From positions 1 to 64,000 of the forward strand of contig PAAG01000008.1 of assembly GCA_002698785.1 (NCBI GenBank): 64,000 nt of DNA, read 5' to 3'. The notes beneath the pieces were generated by a model. The model searched no databases and had not been told where the DNA came from. It was given only the letters and a program-made list of their open reading frames with translations. Shown piece by piece: positions 8,199 through 51,331 of this stretch (position 1 is its first letter; every line of letters starts with the position of its first letter). Position numbers and translations under genes: made by a program. This stretch comes from Verrucomicrobiales bacterium. GTDB taxonomy: Bacteria > Verrucomicrobiota > Verrucomicrobiia > Verrucomicrobiales > DEV007.

Positions 8199-9188
8199 AT
8201 GGAACCTCATCGCAGAAAAGACGTCCCACCACGCGGGGAATCAGGTCGAGAGCCTGTCCCGAATCCGGAAGATCCCGCCGCTCACGAGCAGCCTCCCGTG
8301 GATCCCGTGGAAGAGGTCTACGAGCAGGGTGGATATGATCCGGGCCAGGCCTTGATGGATGAGTCCCAGACTTACGAAAATCCTCCTGCCGAGCAGCAGC
8401 CGGATCCTTCTGCCTACGTTCCACCACCGCCACCGGTTACAGGCGCGGGTGTTTACGACACTGCTCCGCTGCAACCGGCTCCTCAGAATCCAGAGCCTGC
8501 GTCAGCTCCCGCACCACGAAAAAAGCCGGCTGTAAAACGTCGTCCTGCGGGAAAACGGCCAGCGACCAAAAAACGTCCATATGGGAGATCTCGCAGGCCG
8601 TCCTACGACGCTGGAGGCGGTATGATGGCTGTTTTTATGACAATTCTCGCCCTCGCTATGATCGCCGTGATGGTTTGGGCATTGCTCCCGAAGGATCTTT
8701 CGGGGGTGAAAGGGTACCCATTTGACCCGCTGGCGAAGACGGAAACAAAGAACTTCCTTGAACCTGCTCAGAAGGTGATGATCGATCGCAATTCTGAATT
8801 GGTTCTCTCGGAGGAGGACGTAAATCTTTATCTGAATCAGCGACTTCAGGGAGAACAAGCTGGTTTGATGGCTTCGTTCGTCAAATTCCGTGGTATCTAT
8901 GTCGACTTCGAACCTGAGATAGCCGAAGTCATCCTCGAACGGGAGATTTTCGGTCAACCTATCACCATGAGTTCGAAAATCGGCGTTCAGCACGTTCGCG
9001 GACTGGTGAAGTATCGTCCGGTAGGCTGGACGATCGGTAGATTCGAATTTACTACCCGCAACATCAAGCCTGTGGTCGATATGTTCGTGCGTCTTCGACA
9101 GGCCTGCGGAGATGAAATGGGCGTTCTTCAGCAGCTCGCTGATGTCCGGTTCGAAGCTGACCAGATTGTTCTGGACGGCAAACTGTAG
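8199..9188 (+). CDS. Proline-rich single-pass membrane protein of unknown function
   Basis: A 329-residue protein I do not recognise. Residues 1-105 are acidic and proline-rich ([14 protein letters not shown]..., VPPPPPV). Residues 106-134 are strongly basic ([20 protein letters not shown]). One membrane helix lies at about 142-163 ([22 protein letters not shown]). The remaining ~165 residues form a compact alpha/beta region ending [12 protein letters not shown], which looks like an extracytoplasmic lipid- or ligand-binding fold, but this is only an impression. The basic stretch before the helix predicts a cytoplasmic N-terminus and an outward C-terminal domain. It sits 15 bp after the FmdB gene. 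Confidence 0.8.
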
Positions 9189-9283
9189 CCGTCTGCTGCT
9201 TCGACACGGAAGGCACCGGATTCGGCACAATTTCAAAATATCGCGGGCTTGCTTCATTCGGCTCGTCAGATCAGAGTGAGGGG

Positions 9284-10765
9284 ATGAAACCCCTCGCTTT
9301 CTTTTTTCTGGCCATTTCGGCTCTGAGCCTGATCCCCGTGGCGTCTGCGGATGAGGCAAAGCCGAACGTCATTTTCATTCTGTCAGACGACCATCGTTGG
9401 GACCGTCTTGGTTGTGCAGGTCATCCAATCCTTCAGACACCGACGCTCGATGCGCTCGCGGCAGAAGGAACTCGCTTTTCCAACATGTTCGTGACCACTT
9501 CGATCTGTGCTGCCAGCCGCGCCACGATATTTACGGGGCTCTACGAGCGCACTCACGGATACACCTTCGGCACTCCTCCGATATCGAAAGAGCACACCAA
9601 TACCAGTTATCCGGCGCTCATGAAAAAGGCGGGCTACCGCACCGGTTTCGTCGGCAAATTCGGCGTAGGAATGGAGGGGCAGGGAAATAAGGAAATCTTC
9701 GACTGGTTTCACGAAGTTGGTCGCAATCCATATTTTCACAAAATGCCTGACGGATCGCTTCGACATGAGAGCGAAATCTGCGGAGACGAAGCGATTGGAT
9801 TTATCAAGGAAAGCGTGAAGGACGGTCCCTTCTGTCTGTCGATCAGTTTCAATGCTGCCCACGCGGAAGACAGCGACAGACGCCCCGGCATTGGACATTA
9901 TCCTTGGCCAAAAGCGGTGGAAGGTCTCTACGAAGACATTCCAATGCCAGAACCTCGCCTCTCGTCTCCTCAGATTTTTGAGGCCCATCCCCAGTTCCTG
10001 AAAGATTCCATGAATCGTGACCGCTACTACTGGCGCTGGGATACTCCGGAAAAGTTTCAGACCAATCTCCGGGCCTATTATCGAATGATCACTGGCCTCG
10101 ACAAGGTCATTGGGCGAGTGCGATCTGCCCTCGATGAACTGGGCGTTGCAGAAAACACGGTCATCGTTTTTGCCGGTGACAACGGCTACTACGAGGGCCA
10201 GAGGGGTTTCGCTGGAAAATGGTCTCACTACGAGGAGTCTCTTAGAGTCCCATTGATCATTTTCGATCCACGGGTAGAAGAGTCCAATCAGGGCCAGGTC
10301 TGCGATCTTATGGTGTTAAACGCCGACATTGCTCCTACCATCCTGGAATATGGTGGTGTGAGTATTCCCGAGGTTTACCAAGGCAGAGGACTGAAGCAAC
10401 TCGTCGAAGGCGCAGACCCGGCTGAGTGGAGAGAAGATACTTTCGTCGAGCACCTGATGGACCATCCTGACATCCCAAAATGGGAGGGCGTTCGCGATTC
10501 CCGTTATGTATATGCGAGATACTTCGAGCAGGATCCACCTTTCGAATTTCTCCACGACTTGGAAAAAGATCCTGATGAACTGACAAATCTAGTCACAGAC
10601 CCGGCCTCCGAAGAGATTCTGGAAAAGATGCGGTCCAGAACCAACCAACTTCGAGACTCCTACGGTGGCCCCTTCGACGTAACCCGGGTGAGAAAGTGGA
10701 AAGAGGAGCAGGCAGCGAAGAGAAAAGCACAAAAGGCGAAGCAGAAAGCGAAGAGCAAGCAATGA
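9284..10765 (+). CDS. Secreted sulfatase (formylglycine-dependent, S1 family)
   Basis: A 493-residue arylsulfatase-superfamily enzyme with a Sec signal peptide ([16 protein letters not shown]..., cleavage near ASADEA). Metal ligands D35/D36 (FILSDDH) and the C-terminal FAGDNGY motif are present. The formylglycine site is C75-AASR: the third position is Ala, an accepted variant of CxPxR, so maturation needs a formylglycine-generating enzyme encoded elsewhere. Likely role: removal of sulfate esters from polysaccharides in the periplasm. The C-terminus has a Lys/Ala/Gln-rich tail. GAGGGG lies just upstream of the ATG. Its TGA overlaps the ATG of the Nudix gene (ATGA). Confidence 0.92.
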
Positions 10766-34930: not shown

Positions 34931-37825
34931 TTACTCCTGCGATTCCTTTTCGTCATTCGGGGTGGCCGTGGTCTGCGCGATGGGGAGGCGGTCGACCCGA
35001 AGCGCTTCGAAAAGTGCATCAGAATCAAAAGAAAAGTCTTTTACCGCAAAACCATCGAAGTCATCCATCAAACCGATGAGGACTGCGCGGGCTCTTCGCT
35101 GCTTTCCTGTCAGGTAAGCCAACGCGACATCGAGTGACTTATAGTAGTTTTTCAATTCGCTGGAGTCAGAGGCATCCACATACCCCTGGATCATGTATTC
35201 CAGATCGGCGATTTCCTCATCCGAACGGTTTCTCCAGTAGTCTGTCTCATCCGCCCAGTCCTTCGAGCGTAGCTCGTGAGTTTTGATCAGCTTTGCAGGT
35301 ACGCAGGTGGAAAAGTTCCCGGTTTCCAGGCAGGCAATTCCGAAAGCAGCCAGTTCGGCATCACTGCCACCTCTCTCGGGAAGTAGGGTCTGCATGTATC
35401 GATCGTAGCTCTCCGAGTGATCGCCTTGTGCATCGATGGCGCGCTCAAACCATACTTTCGGATCTTCGCGGGGGACATGTAGATCCATGGCGACTTCAAT
35501 CATCAGGCTCGCCGCATAAGGTTCTCCTGGTTCAAGTTCCCAACTCTCTCTCAGGGCAAGGCGTGCCTGCATCAACTCTTCTGGATAACTCCACCACTCA
35601 GGGGAAAGAACTTTCTTGATGCCTTTGTTGCTCAACGCTTTCTGCGCATTTGTCAGGTGATACTGCCCTCGAACGAGGTTTTTCAGCCAGGGATCAAGTG
35701 CCGATGCTCCTTCAACCGCATCAACAAACTCTGCTCCGTTTTCTTCATACAGCGCCGTTGCGGGACGCTTGCAGAGAGTGGCGACTCTAGCGCTTACCGG
35801 GAGTTCTTTGAGGCCGTCCGCTTCGTAAAGCATCTCAGCGGCCGCGTCGATGGCTTCCTTCACATGATCGGGTTTCCGGGTCAGTTCTGCCCGCACTGCT
35901 TTTGCGTGGAAGACGAGGACTGGATCTCCAATTTTTTCGACCTCCGGAATCAGCGATTCTGCCGCCTTCAGGCGTATCCTCTTATCAAAAATATCGTAAA
36001 GAAGAGCCGAAGCCACACGAGGGTGTTTGTCGACCTCTTTCCAGACCGTCTTCACCGCACTGACGTGTGGATCAAAGCTGAACCCGGGTACTTCTTTGCT
36101 GTATCGCTCTGCAAGTTTCAAACCCAGTTTCTGGATCGCAGGCTCGGCGAAGGTATCTACTCCATGCCGAGTCAGGAAATAGTCCATGGTCCGCTTTTTC
36201 TCGGTGGTTGCCCAGAGAGGCGATGCAGAAATGATGGGAAGCGAGTAAGCCGGAAGTTCGGACTGAGGAACCTCCGTTGTTCGCTCTTCCATCCCCATAT
36301 TGGTCTTCACGACGTCGACGGTATTGAGAATGAAATTTCCAGTGTAAAGGCGTGTTTGATAGAGGACAAAAGCGAACGCTATCAAAGCCGCCGCCGCGAT
36401 AATTCTGCTTACGAGCTTCTTTACCTTCGGATTGCTTCCGGAACGTCGTGGTTTTAGCTCGGGAACATTTTGCTCGAATGGTGTAGAGGAGGGAGGCGTA
36501 GCCGCGTATCCTATCGACTCAGCGGATAGCGGAGCCGTTCCGGCTGGAACAGGCACGGTGCCTGTCTGCGAAGGGTATCCGGGCAGGGGAGCTGTTTGGA
36601 CAGGTTGACCGGGTAGAGGTCCCGTTGGTATTGGCTGGCCAGGCAAAGGAGCCGTTGGTGCCGGCTGCGTGGGAATTTGTCCAGTTTGCACTGGTCCCTG
36701 CTCGGCGTAAGGAGGAGCCGTCTCCGGTGGCGGTGCCAGAGGCTGTTGCCCCTCTTTCAGCCAGGGGAATTTCTCTTCAGCTTCCGCGTTAGTCTGGTTC
36801 TGTTGATGTGAGACCAGGTGCGTTTGCGCAGGCGATTCGTGCACCACCCCTTGTGACGGAGGCGGAACTGATGCCCCTACCGGTTGGATAGGGATCGTCA
36901 TGGAAGGAAGGGAGTCATCCTCCAGGTCCATGGGTTTGATCGGGATAGTGGCAGAAGGTAGGCTACCTGCGTCGCTATCGTCGTCGACTCCGTTGTTCTG
37001 GGGTTGCGCCAGTGTTCTGGACAGATTTGCAATTACCGGAACAGTTGCCGGAGCTTCCGCTGCTGCAGGAGGATCGCTTTGGATCGGGCCGGAAATATCT
37101 TCTGCTTCTGCGTGATTGAGGGGCTGAGTCTGTGGGCGTGACTGAGCGAAAGAATCTTCACCCGATGACGCGCGAATCTGAAATCCCGAATCGGTCGCCG
37201 GTTCAGGTTCAGATACCTGCGGGTTTTCTTCTTCCCTGGGAGCTTCTGAAACTGGCCTTGGTTGGATTCGCTCTGGCGCGGCAAGGTCAGGCAAATCAAG
37301 ATCTGGCTGGTCACTGAAACCGGAGGACGTAGAATCCTGCGCTACAGGTTCGGCTGGCTCTTCCAGTGGGGGCAAATTAACAGAAGGACTCCCACCACCG
37401 TCCGAATCCATCTCCAGCGGTGGCAGATCGAATTCAAAATCGTCGTCTGAACCCGTCTCTTGAGAGCCGATCAGGTTCAATTCCTGTCCATCGATCAGAG
37501 AGACACCATGCTCACCAGCCGCGGCGTGAATAGAGAGGGAGAAAGTAGTAGGGGAATACAGCTGTGTCTGGGTGATATCTTCAGAAAAAGCTTCATCGGC
37601 GAGTGAAGTGATGTCTTCAGCTGTAACCGACTCTCCTTCAATTGCATAGGCAACCGCCTTCCTGATTTCAGGAGTGGGGATGTAATGGACTAGAAATTCA
37701 AAGCTCGGTAACTCGGGAGGAGCGGGATGAATTTCGAATCCATAATTCCTCAGGCGCTCACGTACAGCTTCATCGAAGCGAGCGAGGTAATCCGGAGAAT
37801 GTGAATCGGGGTCTACGGAAAGCAT
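34931..37825 (-). CDS. Large membrane protein: degenerate Mrr-like domain, Pro-rich linker, TM, DUF4034-like region
   Basis: A 964-residue protein. Residues ~12-118 resemble a restriction-endonuclease-like (Mrr) fold by its late motif TTFSLSIHAAAGEHGVSLIDGQEL, but no catalytic D...QxK is visible. Residues 120-460 are acidic and Pro/Gln-rich, with repeats such as TAPLPGQPIPTGPLPGQP (391-408) and two SLPSxTIPIxP units (288-316). A membrane helix lies at ~473-490 after a basic stretch, so the N-part is cytoplasmic. Residues ~540-950 are helical TPR-like, with LLPERGGSDAELAAFG and WRNRSDEEIADL resembling DUF4034. It is a paralogue of the 38009-39922 protein and carries the same upstream element. 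The function is unknown. Confidence 0.8.
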   Translation of the reverse strand: MLSVDPDSHSPDYLARFDEAVRERLRNYGFEIHPAPPELPSFEFLVHYIPTPEIRKAVAYAIEGESVTAEDITSLADEAFSEDITQTQLYSPTTFSLSIHAAAGEHGVSLIDGQELNLIGSQETGSDDDFEFDLPPLEMDSDGGGSPSVNLPPLEEPAEPVAQDSTSSGFSDQPDLDLPDLAAPERIQPRPVSEAPREEENPQVSEPEPATDSGFQIRASSGEDSFAQSRPQTQPLNHAEAEDISGPIQSDPPAAAEAPATVPVIANLSRTLAQPQNNGVDDDSDAGSLPSATIPIKPMDLEDDSLPSMTIPIQPVGASVPPPSQGVVHESPAQTHLVSHQQNQTNAEAEEKFPWLKEGQQPLAPPPETAPPYAEQGPVQTGQIPTQPAPTAPLPGQPIPTGPLPGQPVQTAPLPGYPSQTGTVPVPAGTAPLSAESIGYAATPPSSTPFEQNVPELKPRRSGSNPKVKKLVSRIIAAAALIAFAFVLYQTRLYTGNFILNTVDVVKTNMGMEERTTEVPQSELPAYSLPIISASPLWATTEKKRTMDYFLTRHGVDTFAEPAIQKLGLKLAERYSKEVPGFSFDPHVSAVKTVWKEVDKHPRVASALLYDIFDKRIRLKAAESLIPEVEKIGDPVLVFHAKAVRAELTRKPDHVKEAIDAAAEMLYEADGLKELPVSARVATLCKRPATALYEENGAEFVDAVEGASALDPWLKNLVRGQYHLTNAQKALSNKGIKKVLSPEWWSYPEELMQARLALRESWELEPGEPYAASLMIEVAMDLHVPREDPKVWFERAIDAQGDHSESYDRYMQTLLPERGGSDAELAAFGIACLETGNFSTCVPAKLIKTHELRSKDWADETDYWRNRSDEEIADLEYMIQGYVDASDSSELKNYYKSLDVALAYLTGKQRRARAVLIGLMDDFDGFAVKDFSFDSDALFEALRVDRLPIAQTTATPNDEKESQE

Positions 37826-37830
37826 TGCAA

Positions 37831-37844
37831 TTATGGAATTTATA
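37831..37844 (-). promoter_or_regulatory. TATAAATTCCATAA element upstream of the 964-aa protein
   Basis: Read on the minus strand this is TATAAATTCCATAA, one base different from the copies at 39931-39944 and 51318-51331. It ends 5 bp before the ATG, so if TATAAA is the -10 box the transcript would be nearly leaderless. Confidence 0.45.
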
Positions 37845-38008
37845 AGAATAAATCAATTCTTCGACCTTTGCAATGATCAACGCTCCAAAACTATTAATTT
37901 TCTTGCGCTGTCCTGCGGAACCTCCGCCAGAACAAGGGCGCGAGGCAGGTCCAGGCGCGGAAACTTTGCTCGAAAACTTATTTCAGCAGGCAGAAATAGC
38001 TGCATTTC

Positions 38009-39922
38009 CTACTCCTCGACATCCGGAGGCAGGGAATTCGCATCTGCCAAAGGGAGACCTAGAGTCGAAACAATCGTTTCATACTGAAAAGGAAACGTTT
38101 CTACCGCCGGCTTGTTGCATTCCGTCCCCAACGCAGAAAGAAGATCTCTGGCTTCGTCTCGATCGACCGAGGTGAACACAAACGCAACTTCAACGGAGCG
38201 ATAATAATTGCGAAGGTCCGGGTTTTCCGCTGAGTCCGCGTATGCAGCAAACATGTTTCGCAGGTCTCGAATCTCCTCATCGGATCTCGCCTGCCAGTAT
38301 TCCCATTCGCTTTCCCATTCCATCGCCCGCCTGTGATGAGATTCTAGCAGGATCGCCGGGATGCACGTGTCATAGCGATTCGAATTCACGCACGCGATTC
38401 CGAATGACGCGAGCTGTGCGTCACTACCACCCCATCTAGGGAGAATACTCCAAAGATAATTCCGATAGGCCGGGAGGTAATCCTCCTGAGCTTCGATTGC
38501 TCTGAGAAACCACGTTCTTGTTTCCTTGTCAGGAAGAGATGCTCCCATGCAGACCTTGATCATCGAAGCGGGGGCATAGGGATACTCCGGGTTCGCTTCC
38601 CAGCTCTTGTGTAGGGCGGCGCCAGCCAATTGCAGCTCACGGTAGAATCCCTCCCACCCTTCCTGTGTAACGGAGTAGGCCCATCCGCTGCCCCTGGCTT
38701 TCCAGGCCGCGTCAATATGATATCGTCCCTCCGCATAGCGAATCAGCCATTCTGGAATTGCTGTATTTGCAGAGAGCAATTCAAGGAAATCTTTGCCGCC
38801 TTCGTCCGAAACGTAGTCCATTGGTCCAGCATAGAGTGCTACGATCTGCACGCTGGGGTCATGCTGCTGCAGTCCGTAAGTCTTTTCTAACAAGCTACCT
38901 ACGGCTTCGATTGCCACCTCCAGGTGATCTGCATCTTTGGAAAGCTCGGCTCGGGTCGCTTTTGCTTTCAGAAGTAGAAAAGGGTCCCCATGAGTTTCCA
39001 GGATAGGCAGGAGAGCTTCTACCGTCCGCAGCTGAAGGTCGGCTTCTCCTAGGTCTCGAATCAATGCTGTTGCCAATCCGGGATATCTTGATGGGCTCTT
39101 CCAGACCTCGGCTACACTATCTCGATGGAGAGTCAGATCGAGATACGGAAGCTCGCCCGTAGATCGCAATACCAGTGCAGAAGCAAGGCGCTTTAAGGCT
39201 CCGTCAGGAATTTGATCTACTCCATAGATTCGGGAAAAATGCTCCCTCAGGATTGCTTTAGGAGTCTCTGCTACTGCAGAAGGTGCCGGAGAGACACCTA
39301 GCGGGAACTCGGGCAACTCCGCTTGAGGAGTCTGGTGACGACCTCTCACCTCCGCCTCAGACTCGCTGCTGGAGAGTTGGCCGCTGGCAACTTTCAGGGC
39401 AAATTTGGCAGTAAAGAGGAGCAGAAAAACTGCTGCAGTACCGGCAATGACCGTTCCAATCAGACCGAGAGCAGATTTCCCCGGCTTGCTCCTAGGCTCT
39501 ACAGCCGCTGCTGGAGAAAGAACGCGAGGCAAGGGCGGAGGAGAATTCCTGGGAAGTGGTGGAGGTGTCTTCGACGCAGATGCTGCGGAGACACTGTTCC
39601 CGTCATTCAATGAAATACAAAGACCGAGAGCCTCCATTGCAATCTGCGATGAAAACGAAGTCGGTGTGAAGATCTGCACCCGATCGACACCAAAGCGAGA
39701 TGCCTGCTCGGAAAAGGATTGTAGCTGTTCCACACTCAATTCGTTTCCGTCTTCAATCAATACGACGACTGATTCCACGGATCCAGATTCGGGATTCCGC
39801 GTTGCGTATTGGAAATCCACCCCATCTTTCGATACAGGAAGCACCTCTGCTCCGGCTGCCTGAAGTGAATCGCAGACGAGTTTCTCGAACTCCGAGAAAG
39901 AACTGAAAGAGGGATGAGTCAT
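38009..39922 (-). CDS. Membrane protein: degenerate Mrr-like domain, TM, DUF4034-like region
   Basis: A 637-residue protein. Residues ~8-115 have a restriction-endonuclease-like pattern (FEKLVCDSLQAAGAEVLPVSKDG, then IFTPTSFSSQIAMEALGLCISLNDG), but the QxK position of active Mrr nucleases reads VLI (VVVLIEDG). A PPPLPR linker (118-135) precedes one membrane helix at ~150-175. The C-terminal ~410 residues share order and sequence with the neighbouring 964-residue protein: AxRAELSKDADHL, the ILPRWGGSDAQLASFG motif typical of DUF4034, and WQARSDEEIRDL. The shared promoter-like element suggests joint regulation. A sensor or scaffold role is conceivable, but nothing is known. Confidence 0.82.
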   Translation of the reverse strand: MTHPSFSSFSEFEKLVCDSLQAAGAEVLPVSKDGVDFQYATRNPESGSVESVVVLIEDGNELSVEQLQSFSEQASRFGVDRVQIFTPTSFSSQIAMEALGLCISLNDGNSVSAASASKTPPPLPRNSPPPLPRVLSPAAAVEPRSKPGKSALGLIGTVIAGTAAVFLLLFTAKFALKVASGQLSSSESEAEVRGRHQTPQAELPEFPLGVSPAPSAVAETPKAILREHFSRIYGVDQIPDGALKRLASALVLRSTGELPYLDLTLHRDSVAEVWKSPSRYPGLATALIRDLGEADLQLRTVEALLPILETHGDPFLLLKAKATRAELSKDADHLEVAIEAVGSLLEKTYGLQQHDPSVQIVALYAGPMDYVSDEGGKDFLELLSANTAIPEWLIRYAEGRYHIDAAWKARGSGWAYSVTQEGWEGFYRELQLAGAALHKSWEANPEYPYAPASMIKVCMGASLPDKETRTWFLRAIEAQEDYLPAYRNYLWSILPRWGGSDAQLASFGIACVNSNRYDTCIPAILLESHHRRAMEWESEWEYWQARSDEEIRDLRNMFAAYADSAENPDLRNYYRSVEVAFVFTSVDRDEARDLLSALGTECNKPAVETFPFQYETIVSTLGLPLADANSLPPDVEE

Positions 39923-39996: not shown

Positions 39997-40725
39997 TTAC
40001 TCTTTCGTAATAAGGATCGCAAAAACGATTCCAGCGGCTGCCGAGTAGGTTGGTCCTACGAACCAACCGATCACCGGGATCAAAGTGATCAAAAGACCGA
40101 CAATTCCCAGCATGGCGATGCTGAAGAAATTCTTTCTCATCAGGCGAAACGATGCCCCTGCTGAAAGCCCCGAGCGATCGAGATAGGGATCCACGAAGCC
40201 TATTGCACTGAGAAACATCTGCGTTGGAAAAAGACAAACCGCAGAGATCACAGCGCCCACCAGCGGGATCAGTCCAAAAAGGAAACCCACTATGAGCGCC
40301 AGTAGGCTGAAGCTGATCGTCACAAATGCCATCAGCAGTGGCCTCTTGATCATCTCCGGAATGCTCCTCGGAACCTCGTGCGAGTCACCCTTTACCACCT
40401 TTTCTGCTTCGATCGAGAGCTGCTCAAGAAATGGGCCATAGCAAACAATTACCAATGCTCGGAACGCCACATAGCAAGTCCCGAGTCCCAGCGCGAAAAA
40501 GAGAACCAGCCAGATATACTCCAGCCATTCAGGGAGATCATACCAATTCGAGATCAATCCCTGGATCCAGTCGCTGACCAGAGAAGAAAGACCGAAGCAG
40601 GCTCCTACCAGAACAACAAATAGAACCACCGACAACCCGATCGGAGCCAGCATGAACTTCCAGTGTCCGTGCTTCCACAGGATCTCGTGCGCCTTGCTGT
40701 AGGAGTAAACTGTTCTTCCGATCAT
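39997..40725 (-). CDS. EI24/CysZ-like multi-pass membrane protein
   Basis: A 242-residue inner-membrane protein with about five hydrophobic segments, of which the first (LAPIGLSVVLFVVLVGACFGL) and the last (IAMLGIVGLLITLIPVIGWFV) are clear. The motif YGPFLEQLSIEAEKVVKG and the C-terminal 'FVGPTYSAAAGIVFA' match the EI24/CysZ family, in which CysZ imports sulfate. A sulfate role would suit an organism with many sulfatases, but the family is broad. It lies 7 bp after GH16 on the same strand. Confidence 0.8.
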   Translation of the reverse strand: MIGRTVYSYSKAHEILWKHGHWKFMLAPIGLSVVLFVVLVGACFGLSSLVSDWIQGLISNWYDLPEWLEYIWLVLFFALGLGTCYVAFRALVIVCYGPFLEQLSIEAEKVVKGDSHEVPRSIPEMIKRPLLMAFVTISFSLLALIVGFLFGLIPLVGAVISAVCLFPTQMFLSAIGFVDPYLDRSGLSAGASFRLMRKNFFSIAMLGIVGLLITLIPVIGWFVGPTYSAAAGIVFAILITKE

Positions 40726-50174: not shown

Positions 50175-51221
50175 TCAGGAATTCCTTGCCGCCTCGAAGC
50201 TCGCGATCAGGTTCAGGTTGGCGATCTCAACAGGGCTGAGGGACTGCTGAACTGCGGCGATTGAAGGGGTCACCGGGCGATAGGCACTTCCAAATTGAGA
50301 GGCAAAATGTTGTCCCTGAGCGGTGGAAAAGACAAAACCATGCCTCAAATAGATTTCGTTCCTGGCTCTCCACAAGCTTTCGGAGGAGAGGTTTTGCAGT
50401 TCAACAGGGCGAAGCGCTCTCTGGTGTGAATTGGGAAAGACCCAGGGACCTCGGCGATTATCTGTGACAGGCGGCGGGACGGGGGCTGGAAGTGGATTTC
50501 TCTGCTGTGGCCGCGGAGCGGGGGCCTGGATAGAAGTAGATTTTTGTACTCCTTCTACCAGAGCGATTGAGTTGAGAGCTCTCTCGATCTGGCGGCTTGG
50601 ATTTCTGGTTCCCGTTCCGAAACGCGGGGTGGAGATTGAAGCCGTTTTTAGAAGGGGAAAGATCAGGTCTGTTTTGATCGCGAAGTTGACCGATTGTGGC
50701 AAATAACCGCCTTGCGCCATTCGATCCATGGAATTCAGACCTGCGGCTACAATTCCCACGACATGGCCGGTTGCCGAGATCAGTGGGCCGCCTGAGTTGC
50801 CTGGCTGGACTGGAGCCGACATCTGGAGATAGCGGGGATCGTCCAACACTCCACTAAGGGCATTAATACTTCCTTTCGAGACTTTTGGATTGCGTCCTAA
50901 TATAGAGGGATCGGGAAATCCCGCAGCCATGACGGAGGATCCGTGCGTGACATCTCCTGACATCCCGAGGCCAAGGAACCGTCCTCTCCAACCGTCAACT
51001 TTCAGGATAGCGATATCATTGTGAGGATCGAGTGCAACGATCTGCGCGGGAAGAATACCTTCCTGGGTATGAACATGGATTCGTTCAGCGTTGCGAATCA
51101 CATGATGGCAGGTGACAAGATAGCCCTTCGGATTAATGGCGAAGCCCGTACCGAACTGGCCGGCTGCCAGGTGCCCCACAAGGAGAACACCCATCGCAAA
51201 GATGGCTGCTAAGAGCTTCAT
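50175..51221 (-). CDS. Secreted trypsin-like serine protease with C-terminal YARHG domain
   Basis: A 348-residue protein. The signal is MKLLAAIFAMGVLLVGHLAAG. The trypsin-fold domain (about 22-200) has the triad H40 (TCHHVI), D69 (HNDIAIL) and S143 (QPGNSGGPL) of HtrA-type proteases, but no PDZ domain follows. A Pro/Gln-rich linker (about 225-265) leads to a YARHG domain (about 275-345; ARNEIYLRHGFVF), a small domain thought to act outside the membrane, often near the cell wall. The fusion suggests a protease localised by YARHG. The upstream TATAATTTCCATAA element is shared with the two DUF4034-like genes. Confidence 0.85.
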   Translation of the reverse strand: MKLLAAIFAMGVLLVGHLAAGQFGTGFAINPKGYLVTCHHVIRNAERIHVHTQEGILPAQIVALDPHNDIAILKVDGWRGRFLGLGMSGDVTHGSSVMAAGFPDPSILGRNPKVSKGSINALSGVLDDPRYLQMSAPVQPGNSGGPLISATGHVVGIVAAGLNSMDRMAQGGYLPQSVNFAIKTDLIFPLLKTASISTPRFGTGTRNPSRQIERALNSIALVEGVQKSTSIQAPAPRPQQRNPLPAPVPPPVTDNRRGPWVFPNSHQRALRPVELQNLSSESLWRARNEIYLRHGFVFSTAQGQHFASQFGSAYRPVTPSIAAVQQSLSPVEIANLNLIASFEAARNS

Positions 51222-51317: not shown

Positions 51318-51331
51318 TTATGGAAATTATA
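51318..51331 (-). promoter_or_regulatory. TATAATTTCCATAA element upstream of the YARHG protease
   Basis: Read on the minus strand: TATAATTTCCATAA, identical to 39931-39944. It lies 96 bp before the protease ATG, further out than the other two copies. Confidence 0.5.

Follow-up and report, generated by a model that had tools for sequence, protein, structure and literature searches.

Two adjacent genes, here called A and B, lie on the minus strand of a 64,000-nucleotide (nt) stretch of DNA from a Verrucomicrobiales bacterium (positions 1 to 64,000 of contig PAAG01000008.1, assembly GCA_002698785.1; hereafter the window). They encode proteins of 964 and 637 residues that have in common an N-terminal domain, a linker, a single membrane helix and a helical C-terminal region. 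The N-terminal domains (N-domains) are predicted to have the PD-(D/E)XK fold of the Mrr nucleases, and alignment indicates that the active site of both is gone. A and B are on balance probably single-pass inner-membrane adaptors, in which the dead Mrr domain would act as a cytoplasmic binding module and a tetratricopeptide repeat (TPR)-like region (the C-region) would bind an envelope protein on the outside.

Domain layout of A and B

The coordinates of both genes and of their parts are listed in Table 1. An earlier note, made from the letters of the window, had described adjacent proteins of these lengths with the same domain order and one membrane helix after the linker, and both the open reading frames (ORFs) and the homology of the proteins agree with that description. 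Each protein has a single hydrophobic segment (Kyte-Doolittle hydropathy only), and the sequence motifs quoted in the note are found in A and B. The linker of A is much longer and of low complexity, the layout being otherwise that of B. The C-regions are 33 % identical (E 9e-91 in a sequence search) and the N-domains alone 22 % identical (E 1.4e-4), and a scan of both proteins against NCBIfam gave no match above any cut-off. A and B are sisters in the C-region tree (support 82/92; rows shorter than 150 residues and contained duplicates left out) and also in the N-domain tree (99/77; seven duplicate rows, L202, L208 and rows shorter than 80 residues left out), which makes a tandem duplication the best reading of the pair.

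Fold of the N-terminal domain

The AlphaFold2 (AF2) model of the B N-domain has the element order a-b-b-b-a-b-a-b-a, with block values of the predicted local distance difference test (pLDDT) of 73-90 over residues 11-110, and the model of the A N-domain has the same order (mean pLDDT 82.3, predicted template modelling score 0.73). Both models contain the PD-(D/E)XK core, alpha-beta-beta-beta-alpha-beta-alpha-beta. The closest structure to both was AF1548 (1y88), with a VIA-align Z of 12.7 in each case (root-mean-square deviation (rmsd) 2.7 over 108 residues for B and 2.3 over 107 residues for A). Further structure matches for the A N-domain included Can2 (Z 10.1), VC1899 (9.5), EndoMS (9.2), RPB5 (8.7) and MspJI (7.9), all of which share the PD-(D/E)XK core, and a family missing from the VIA-align lists is not thereby excluded. 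The top Foldseek match for the same domain was EcoT38I (E 1.6e-3).

Relatives of A and B link the domain to Mrr by sequence as well. The Pfam cut-off for Mrr_cat (PF04471) is passed by L036 (23.9 bits), which is a relative of the same layout as A and B, and by L092 (30.2 bits), L094 (25.5 bits) and L095 (53.1 bits). An alignment of six N-domains found matches in 9 of 74 same-family genomes (E <= 0.01), including a chance-like one in G001 that lies inside a tRNA-synthetase-like ORF (named by eye). The N-domain likeness of A and B is confirmed to exceed chance by relatives in other genomes, some of them above the Mrr_cat cut-off, and by the same predicted fold. The models support an Mrr-type PD-(D/E)XK fold for both domains, as the earlier note had proposed from the sequence; the structure prediction that it suggested as a check gave this fold for both proteins and no different one, and the Mrr_cat matches of the relatives and the catalytic loss described below point the same way.

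Loss of the active site

When aligned with intact Mrr proteins, the catalytic Q-x-K position reads V54-L55-I56 in B, the VLI from which cleavage had been judged unlikely in the first place, and A-Y-A in A. The motif aspartate is kept in B (D36), and in A the position is a gap or a glutamate, depending on the alignment. Neither protein has the catalytic D plus QxK set of Mrr endonucleases, and the active site of both N-domains is gone as far as their sequences can tell.

The loss extends to related proteins of the same order. Where a membrane helix comes after the Mrr domain, the catalytic lysine is kept in 0 of 9 proteins, compared with 30 of the 42 other Mrr-domain proteins (Fisher p 9.7e-5, a value that overstates the number of independent events because the rows are related). 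The 51 proteins compared were those in retrieved regions, with several weak matches and domains shorter than 70 residues left out. The lysine is also missing in L031, whose helix is just below the threshold, and in L053 and L175, giving 0 of 12 in all, and in none of these 12 proteins is the first QxK position either glutamine or glutamate. Three other positions stand out in an alignment of 12 N-domains (11 of the 12 class proteins and one contig-cut protein): in B numbering, F90 is conserved in 11, A98 in 11 and L105 in all 12, which suggests that the domain is constrained by a property other than cleavage. The same N-domain alignment has no acidic or lysine column that is invariant or nearly so.

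Dead Mrr domains in related proteins

Twelve proteins from 8 of the 74 same-family genomes have a membrane helix after a dead Mrr domain, namely A and B (G000), L031 (G015), L033 (G056), L036 (G005), L053 (G024), L089 (G041), L091, L094 and L175 (all G029), and L092 and L095 (both G039). Their outer parts are of several kinds: those of L031, L033 and L053 are homologues of the A and B C-region, L036 has a C-region of this type together with an FGE-sulfatase domain (E 1.8e-29), L089 has a transglutaminase domain (E 1.2e-9), L091 and L094 have two or three hydrophobic segments (multi-helix regions), and L092, L095 and L175 have no Pfam family above cut-off after the helix. Because the relatives join the dead domain to such different outer parts, it looks like a nuclease turned connector or sensor. 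In the N-domain tree ten of the dead N-domains and one contig-cut fragment form a clade (support 97/93), with L095 beside it and L092 apart, which shows that most of the dead N-domains share one origin.

Several further loci bear on the use of degenerate Mrr domains. Genome G024 has an N-domain fragment at one contig end (L090:7598-7981) and a repeat linker, helix and C-region at another (L041:10454-12367), and the two pieces are possibly parts of one gene. In three genomes of a sister family a bactofilin domain follows a degenerate Mrr domain, which scores 23.7 bits in L096 (L096:3098-4045, L097 and L098); these proteins have no hydrophobic segment and are another reuse of a dead Mrr fold. 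A degenerate Mrr domain with RCQ at the QxK position follows a membrane helix and a thioredoxin-like region (thioredoxin by eye) in L099:7752-9266 (minus strand) of G227.

C-terminal region and membrane topology

The C-region of B was modelled as all helix, with block pLDDT values of 80-97 (residues 221-410) and 79-96 (421-490) separated by a dip to 50 (411-420) and followed by values of 64-84 (491-620). Foldseek searches with this region gave a best E of 0.012 and many TPR proteins among the matches, and VIA-align gave Pins/LGN (Z 14.7, rmsd 10.7 over 296 residues), TTC0263 (Z 12.1, rmsd 5.1 over 187) and the periplasmic AlgK (Z 10.7, rmsd 6.6 over 294). Z values of this size are common for helical repeats, so the region is called TPR-like only, and no Pfam TPR motif was found in A or B at E up to 5. 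The DUF4034 (PF13226) likeness claimed in the earlier note is only marginal: B has a weak match (15.3 bits, cut-off 21.3) and 2 of 20 scanned C-region relatives pass the cut-off (L054 at 21.7 bits and L052 at 23.2 bits), but B itself stays below it and A has no Pfam match. Among 141 genomes, 26 match B at E up to 0.001, mostly in the C-region alone, and two of these (G053 and G004) match only in the linker; the best match outside the bacterium's own genome has 28 % identity over the length of the protein. The alignment of 22 C-region proteins was too varied for a profile scan of the genome collection.

The 20 residues before the membrane helix contain more lysine and arginine than the 20 after it in both proteins (4 versus 2 in B and 6 versus 2 in A), and an excess before the helix was found in 7 of 8 proteins counted. 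A hydrophobic segment lies within the first 90 residues of 13 of 19 relatives that have the C-region only (two contig-cut proteins and five weak matches not counted). Individual relatives carry further domains above cut-off, a 3-keto-disaccharide hydrolase domain in L042 (32.9 bits), a C-type lectin domain in L057 (37.4 bits) and the FGE-sulfatase domain of L036. The charge bias, the early hydrophobic segments of the C-region-only relatives and these outer-type domains together favor an N-inside, C-outside orientation, and the C-region most likely lies outside the cytoplasm. The exported TPR-like region of the earlier note thus gains support from the predicted fold and the topology signs, which fall short of proof.

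Interpretation and alternative explanations

The proposed mechanism is that the catalytically dead Mrr-type PD-(D/E)XK domain would serve as a binding module in the cytoplasm, a flexible proline-rich linker would lead from it to the one membrane helix, and the TPR-like helical region on the far side would bind an envelope protein, perhaps giving the pair a signaling or tethering role. A tandem duplication would have produced A and B, whose promoters would be separate, and the two may form a heteromer through their Mrr-fold domains. The layout, the catalytic loss, the recurrence and the common origin of most dead N-domains are seen in the sequences themselves; the folds and the N-inside topology are predictions, and the binding, the heteromer and the role are inferred. 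Among the relatives the dead domain would be the fixed inner plug and the outer tools exchangeable. A wider version is tentative and on present evidence doubtful: in this verrucomicrobial family a single ancestral dead Mrr domain would have become a general cytoplasmic receptor or plug for the inner membrane, joined repeatedly to TPR-like, FGE-sulfatase, transglutaminase and multi-helix modules, and the resulting transmembrane adaptors would inform the envelope of nucleic acid or a partner protein sensed in the cytoplasm, or the reverse.

Several results weigh against the adaptor proposal. The Mrr_cat match of B (16.3 bits) does not reach the cut-off of 21, and A has no Mrr_cat match in the Pfam scan. 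A profile built from 17 strong Mrr members, of which 16 have the lysine, found B at E 0.0035 only and did not list A at a domain E below 1, so the homology of the A N-domain is argued from its relatives and its fold. An N-domain profile run against the sequences of solved structures found no nuclease and nothing significant (best E 0.1), and the AF2 models were made from input alignments of 4 rows. The membrane helices were called from Kyte-Doolittle hydropathy alone at a threshold of 1.6, and L031, at 1.53, is counted in the class all the same. In L033 the lysine and arginine count is 2 before and 3 after the helix. A single clade for all 12 dead domains was rejected (approximately unbiased test, p 0.005, with few columns and long branches). 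Among the further loci, which were the best of the phylum-wide matches (about a dozen weaker ones left out), the distant L195 (G442) is an exception: its QCK is intact, and a weak helix follows the Mrr domain.

The main alternative is that the dead Mrr domain is a sensor of nucleic acid or of an inhibitor in a defence pathway, with DNA binding kept or the domain acting as a decoy for a phage inhibitor, and that the membrane part transmits the signal or does the killing. Such roles have been put forward before: for the inactive restriction endonuclease (REase) domains of BREX-related helicases, that of a nucleotide sensor or decoy (PMC12839542), and for inactive enzyme domains of conflict systems, that of a decoy (PMC7159879); PMC1189080 is a further source for a sensor or decoy role of inactive REase or enzyme domains. 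FGS (FGE-sulfatase-type) domains are also present in conflict systems (PMC7159879, PMC8195603) and occur in two of the relatives found here. However, the PADLOC profiles gave 0 matches at E up to 1 for A, B, the EI24/CysZ-family neighbor of B and three relatives, and no NTPase, vWA or toxin domain was found in five Pfam-scanned neighbors of A and B. The outer domains of the relatives look envelope-type, whereas the cited systems are described as intracellular. A defence role of this kind is judged unlikely, and nucleic-acid sensing as such is compatible with the adaptor reading.

Still less probable is that the N-domain is a decaying relic, inactive and functionless in itself, which merely stays attached to the anchor and the TPR-like part. 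The very long branches of the N-domain tree and the low identity of other N-domains to that of B (20-29 %) would fit such decay, but both paralogues are predicted to have the fold, the non-catalytic positions named above persist in 11 or 12 of the 12 N-domains aligned, and across 8 genomes the domain occurs together with several outer parts that are unrelated to each other. Active sites with migrated residues are known from the PD-(D/E)XK superfamily, and B retains D36 and A has glutamate there in one of two alignments, but the absence of the lysine from all 12 proteins, of glutamine or glutamate from the first QxK position and of any nearly invariant acidic or lysine column makes a nuclease with a migrated active site very improbable.

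If the adaptor reading is correct, adaptors that span the membrane have been built on a nuclease fold in a phylum that has received little study, and the domain, defined by its positions, relatives and models, has a ligand that is open to direct testing.

Genomic context and promoter-like element

The features of the gene pair and its surroundings are given in Table 1.

Table 1 Features of the gene pair A/B and its surroundings (window positions)
Feature	Positions	Strand	Basis
Protein A, 964 aa	34931..37825	minus	ORF, ATG start
A helical C-region, homologous to that of B, limits approximate	34991..36223	minus	Sequence comparison, C-region tree
A membrane helix (predicted), residues 471-489	36359..36415	minus	Kyte-Doolittle 2.27
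A linker, residues 125-470, low complexity	36416..37453	minus	Sequence
A N-domain, residues 10-124, predicted Mrr-like fold, AYA at QxK	37454..37798	minus	AF2, structure comparison, alignment
Promoter-like element TATAAATTCCATAA, end 5 nt before A start codon	37831..37844	minus	Pattern count
Protein B, 637 aa	38009..39922	minus	ORF, ATG start
B helical C-region, residues 221-621, TPR-like, marginal DUF4034-like stretch	38060..39262	minus	AF2, structure comparison, Pfam
B membrane helix (predicted), residues 152-170	39413..39469	minus	Kyte-Doolittle 2.36
B proline-rich linker, residues 117-151	39470..39574	minus	Low pLDDT; PRIMA1 match below cut-off
B N-domain, residues 1-116, predicted PD-(D/E)XK (Mrr-like) fold	39575..39922	minus	AF2, VIA-align
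B V54-L55-I56 at catalytic Q-x-K position, Gln and Lys gone	39755..39763	minus	Alignment with intact Mrr proteins
Promoter-like element TATAATTTCCATAA, end 8 nt before B start codon	39931..39944	minus	Pattern count
EI24/CysZ-family membrane protein, local context only	39997..40725	minus	Pfam EI24, E 3e-20
Third window copy of the promoter-like element	51318-51331	minus	Pattern TATAAWTTCCATAA

Upstream of B lies the gene of the EI24/CysZ family, followed by that of a GH16-type enzyme. EI24 was considered as a constant partner, following the survey of its co-occurrence suggested in the earlier note, and was rejected on finding no homologue in the 48 regions searched. The exact A plus B pair occurs only in this genome among the genomes searched and was likewise rejected as a recurring unit. 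A looser tandem is present in G024, where the protein encoded directly downstream of the L053 gene has a helix and an FGE-sulfatase domain (E 4.3e-30) and a very weak N-domain match (E 0.0012); the lack of a recurring association of the two genes, an outcome that the note had named as refuting it, was thus seen in part. The C-region and the FGE-sulfatase domain are fused in G005 and are neighbors in G024.

The promoter-like element before both genes follows the pattern TATAAWTTCCATAA; exact copies number 9 in the bacterium's 7.0 Mb genome and 147 in 30 of 33 genomes of the genus, against 0 for the reversed pattern in each case. Sixty of the 138 sites outside this genome were retrieved, and an ORF of at least 70 codons (mechanical call) starts within 200 nt at 51 of the 69 sites read. 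The 43 downstream proteins scanned included transglutaminase-like (6), trypsin-like (4), YARHG (4), NERD (4), FHA (2) and secretin (2) proteins. The idea that the element marks a small regulon was dropped, since its genus-wide copies precede many unrelated genes, and it is treated as a widely used promoter element. Of 14 dead-Mrr gene starts, 5 have a copy with no more than 2 mismatches within 120 nt; excluding A and B, which define the pattern, the count is 3 of 12 against 0 of 69 other long ORFs (p 0.003). This enrichment is no more than suggestive, since the mismatch cut-off was chosen once the data were known and some start codons were picked by eye. The copies before A and B suggest that the two genes are transcribed separately.

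Other occurrences of the element were recorded. In each of three genomes (G006, G019 and G031) two copies with opposite orientations are separated by 45-46 nt. A trypsin-like peptidase with a YARHG domain is encoded in the window at 50175-51221 (minus strand), and three relatives of it in other genomes (L240, L281 and L293) also have the element before the start. The bacterium's own genome encodes two paralogous small membrane proteins at L221:6126-6764 and 8720-9349 (minus strand), each preceded by the element, whose N-terminus resembles a cold-shock domain (by eye).

Comparison with known systems

The C-region model is an all-helical repeat that matches the TPR superhelices of Pins/LGN, OGT, TTC0263 and AlgK at scores often reached by helical repeats (VIA-align Z 10.7-14.7), and A and B differ from these in having no Pfam TPR match and a Foldseek E not below 0.012. 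DUF4034 is matched weakly by the C-regions of B and some of the relatives, and no paper naming DUF4034 was found in the literature searched, which excluded most subscription journals. In the same literature, dead PD-(D/E)XK domains have so far been proposed as sensors or decoys, and none was found as the cytoplasmic half of a membrane-envelope protein, nor any dead Mrr domain joined across the membrane to envelope domains. The NACHT-associated NA-iREase1 (PF22722) is by its name an inactive REase-fold module, as the N-domains of A and B appear to be; neither protein matches it in Pfam at E up to 5, and L095 scores 24.9 bits, just below the cut-off of 27.

Membrane-linked Mrr proteins of the same phylum (such as L138, L114, L086 and L184) also combine an Mrr domain with hydrophobic segments, but differ from A and B in that the segments precede the domain and the QCK is intact; the proteins L085, L186 and L188 have helices before the domain as well, without an intact QCK. 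The likeness of A and B to Mrr_cat and AF1548 lies in the predicted fold, the order of its elements and the late motif F..A..L with DG, and A and B differ from the Mrr_cat endonucleases in the loss of QxK and in the position of the domain, which stands before and not after the membrane helix.

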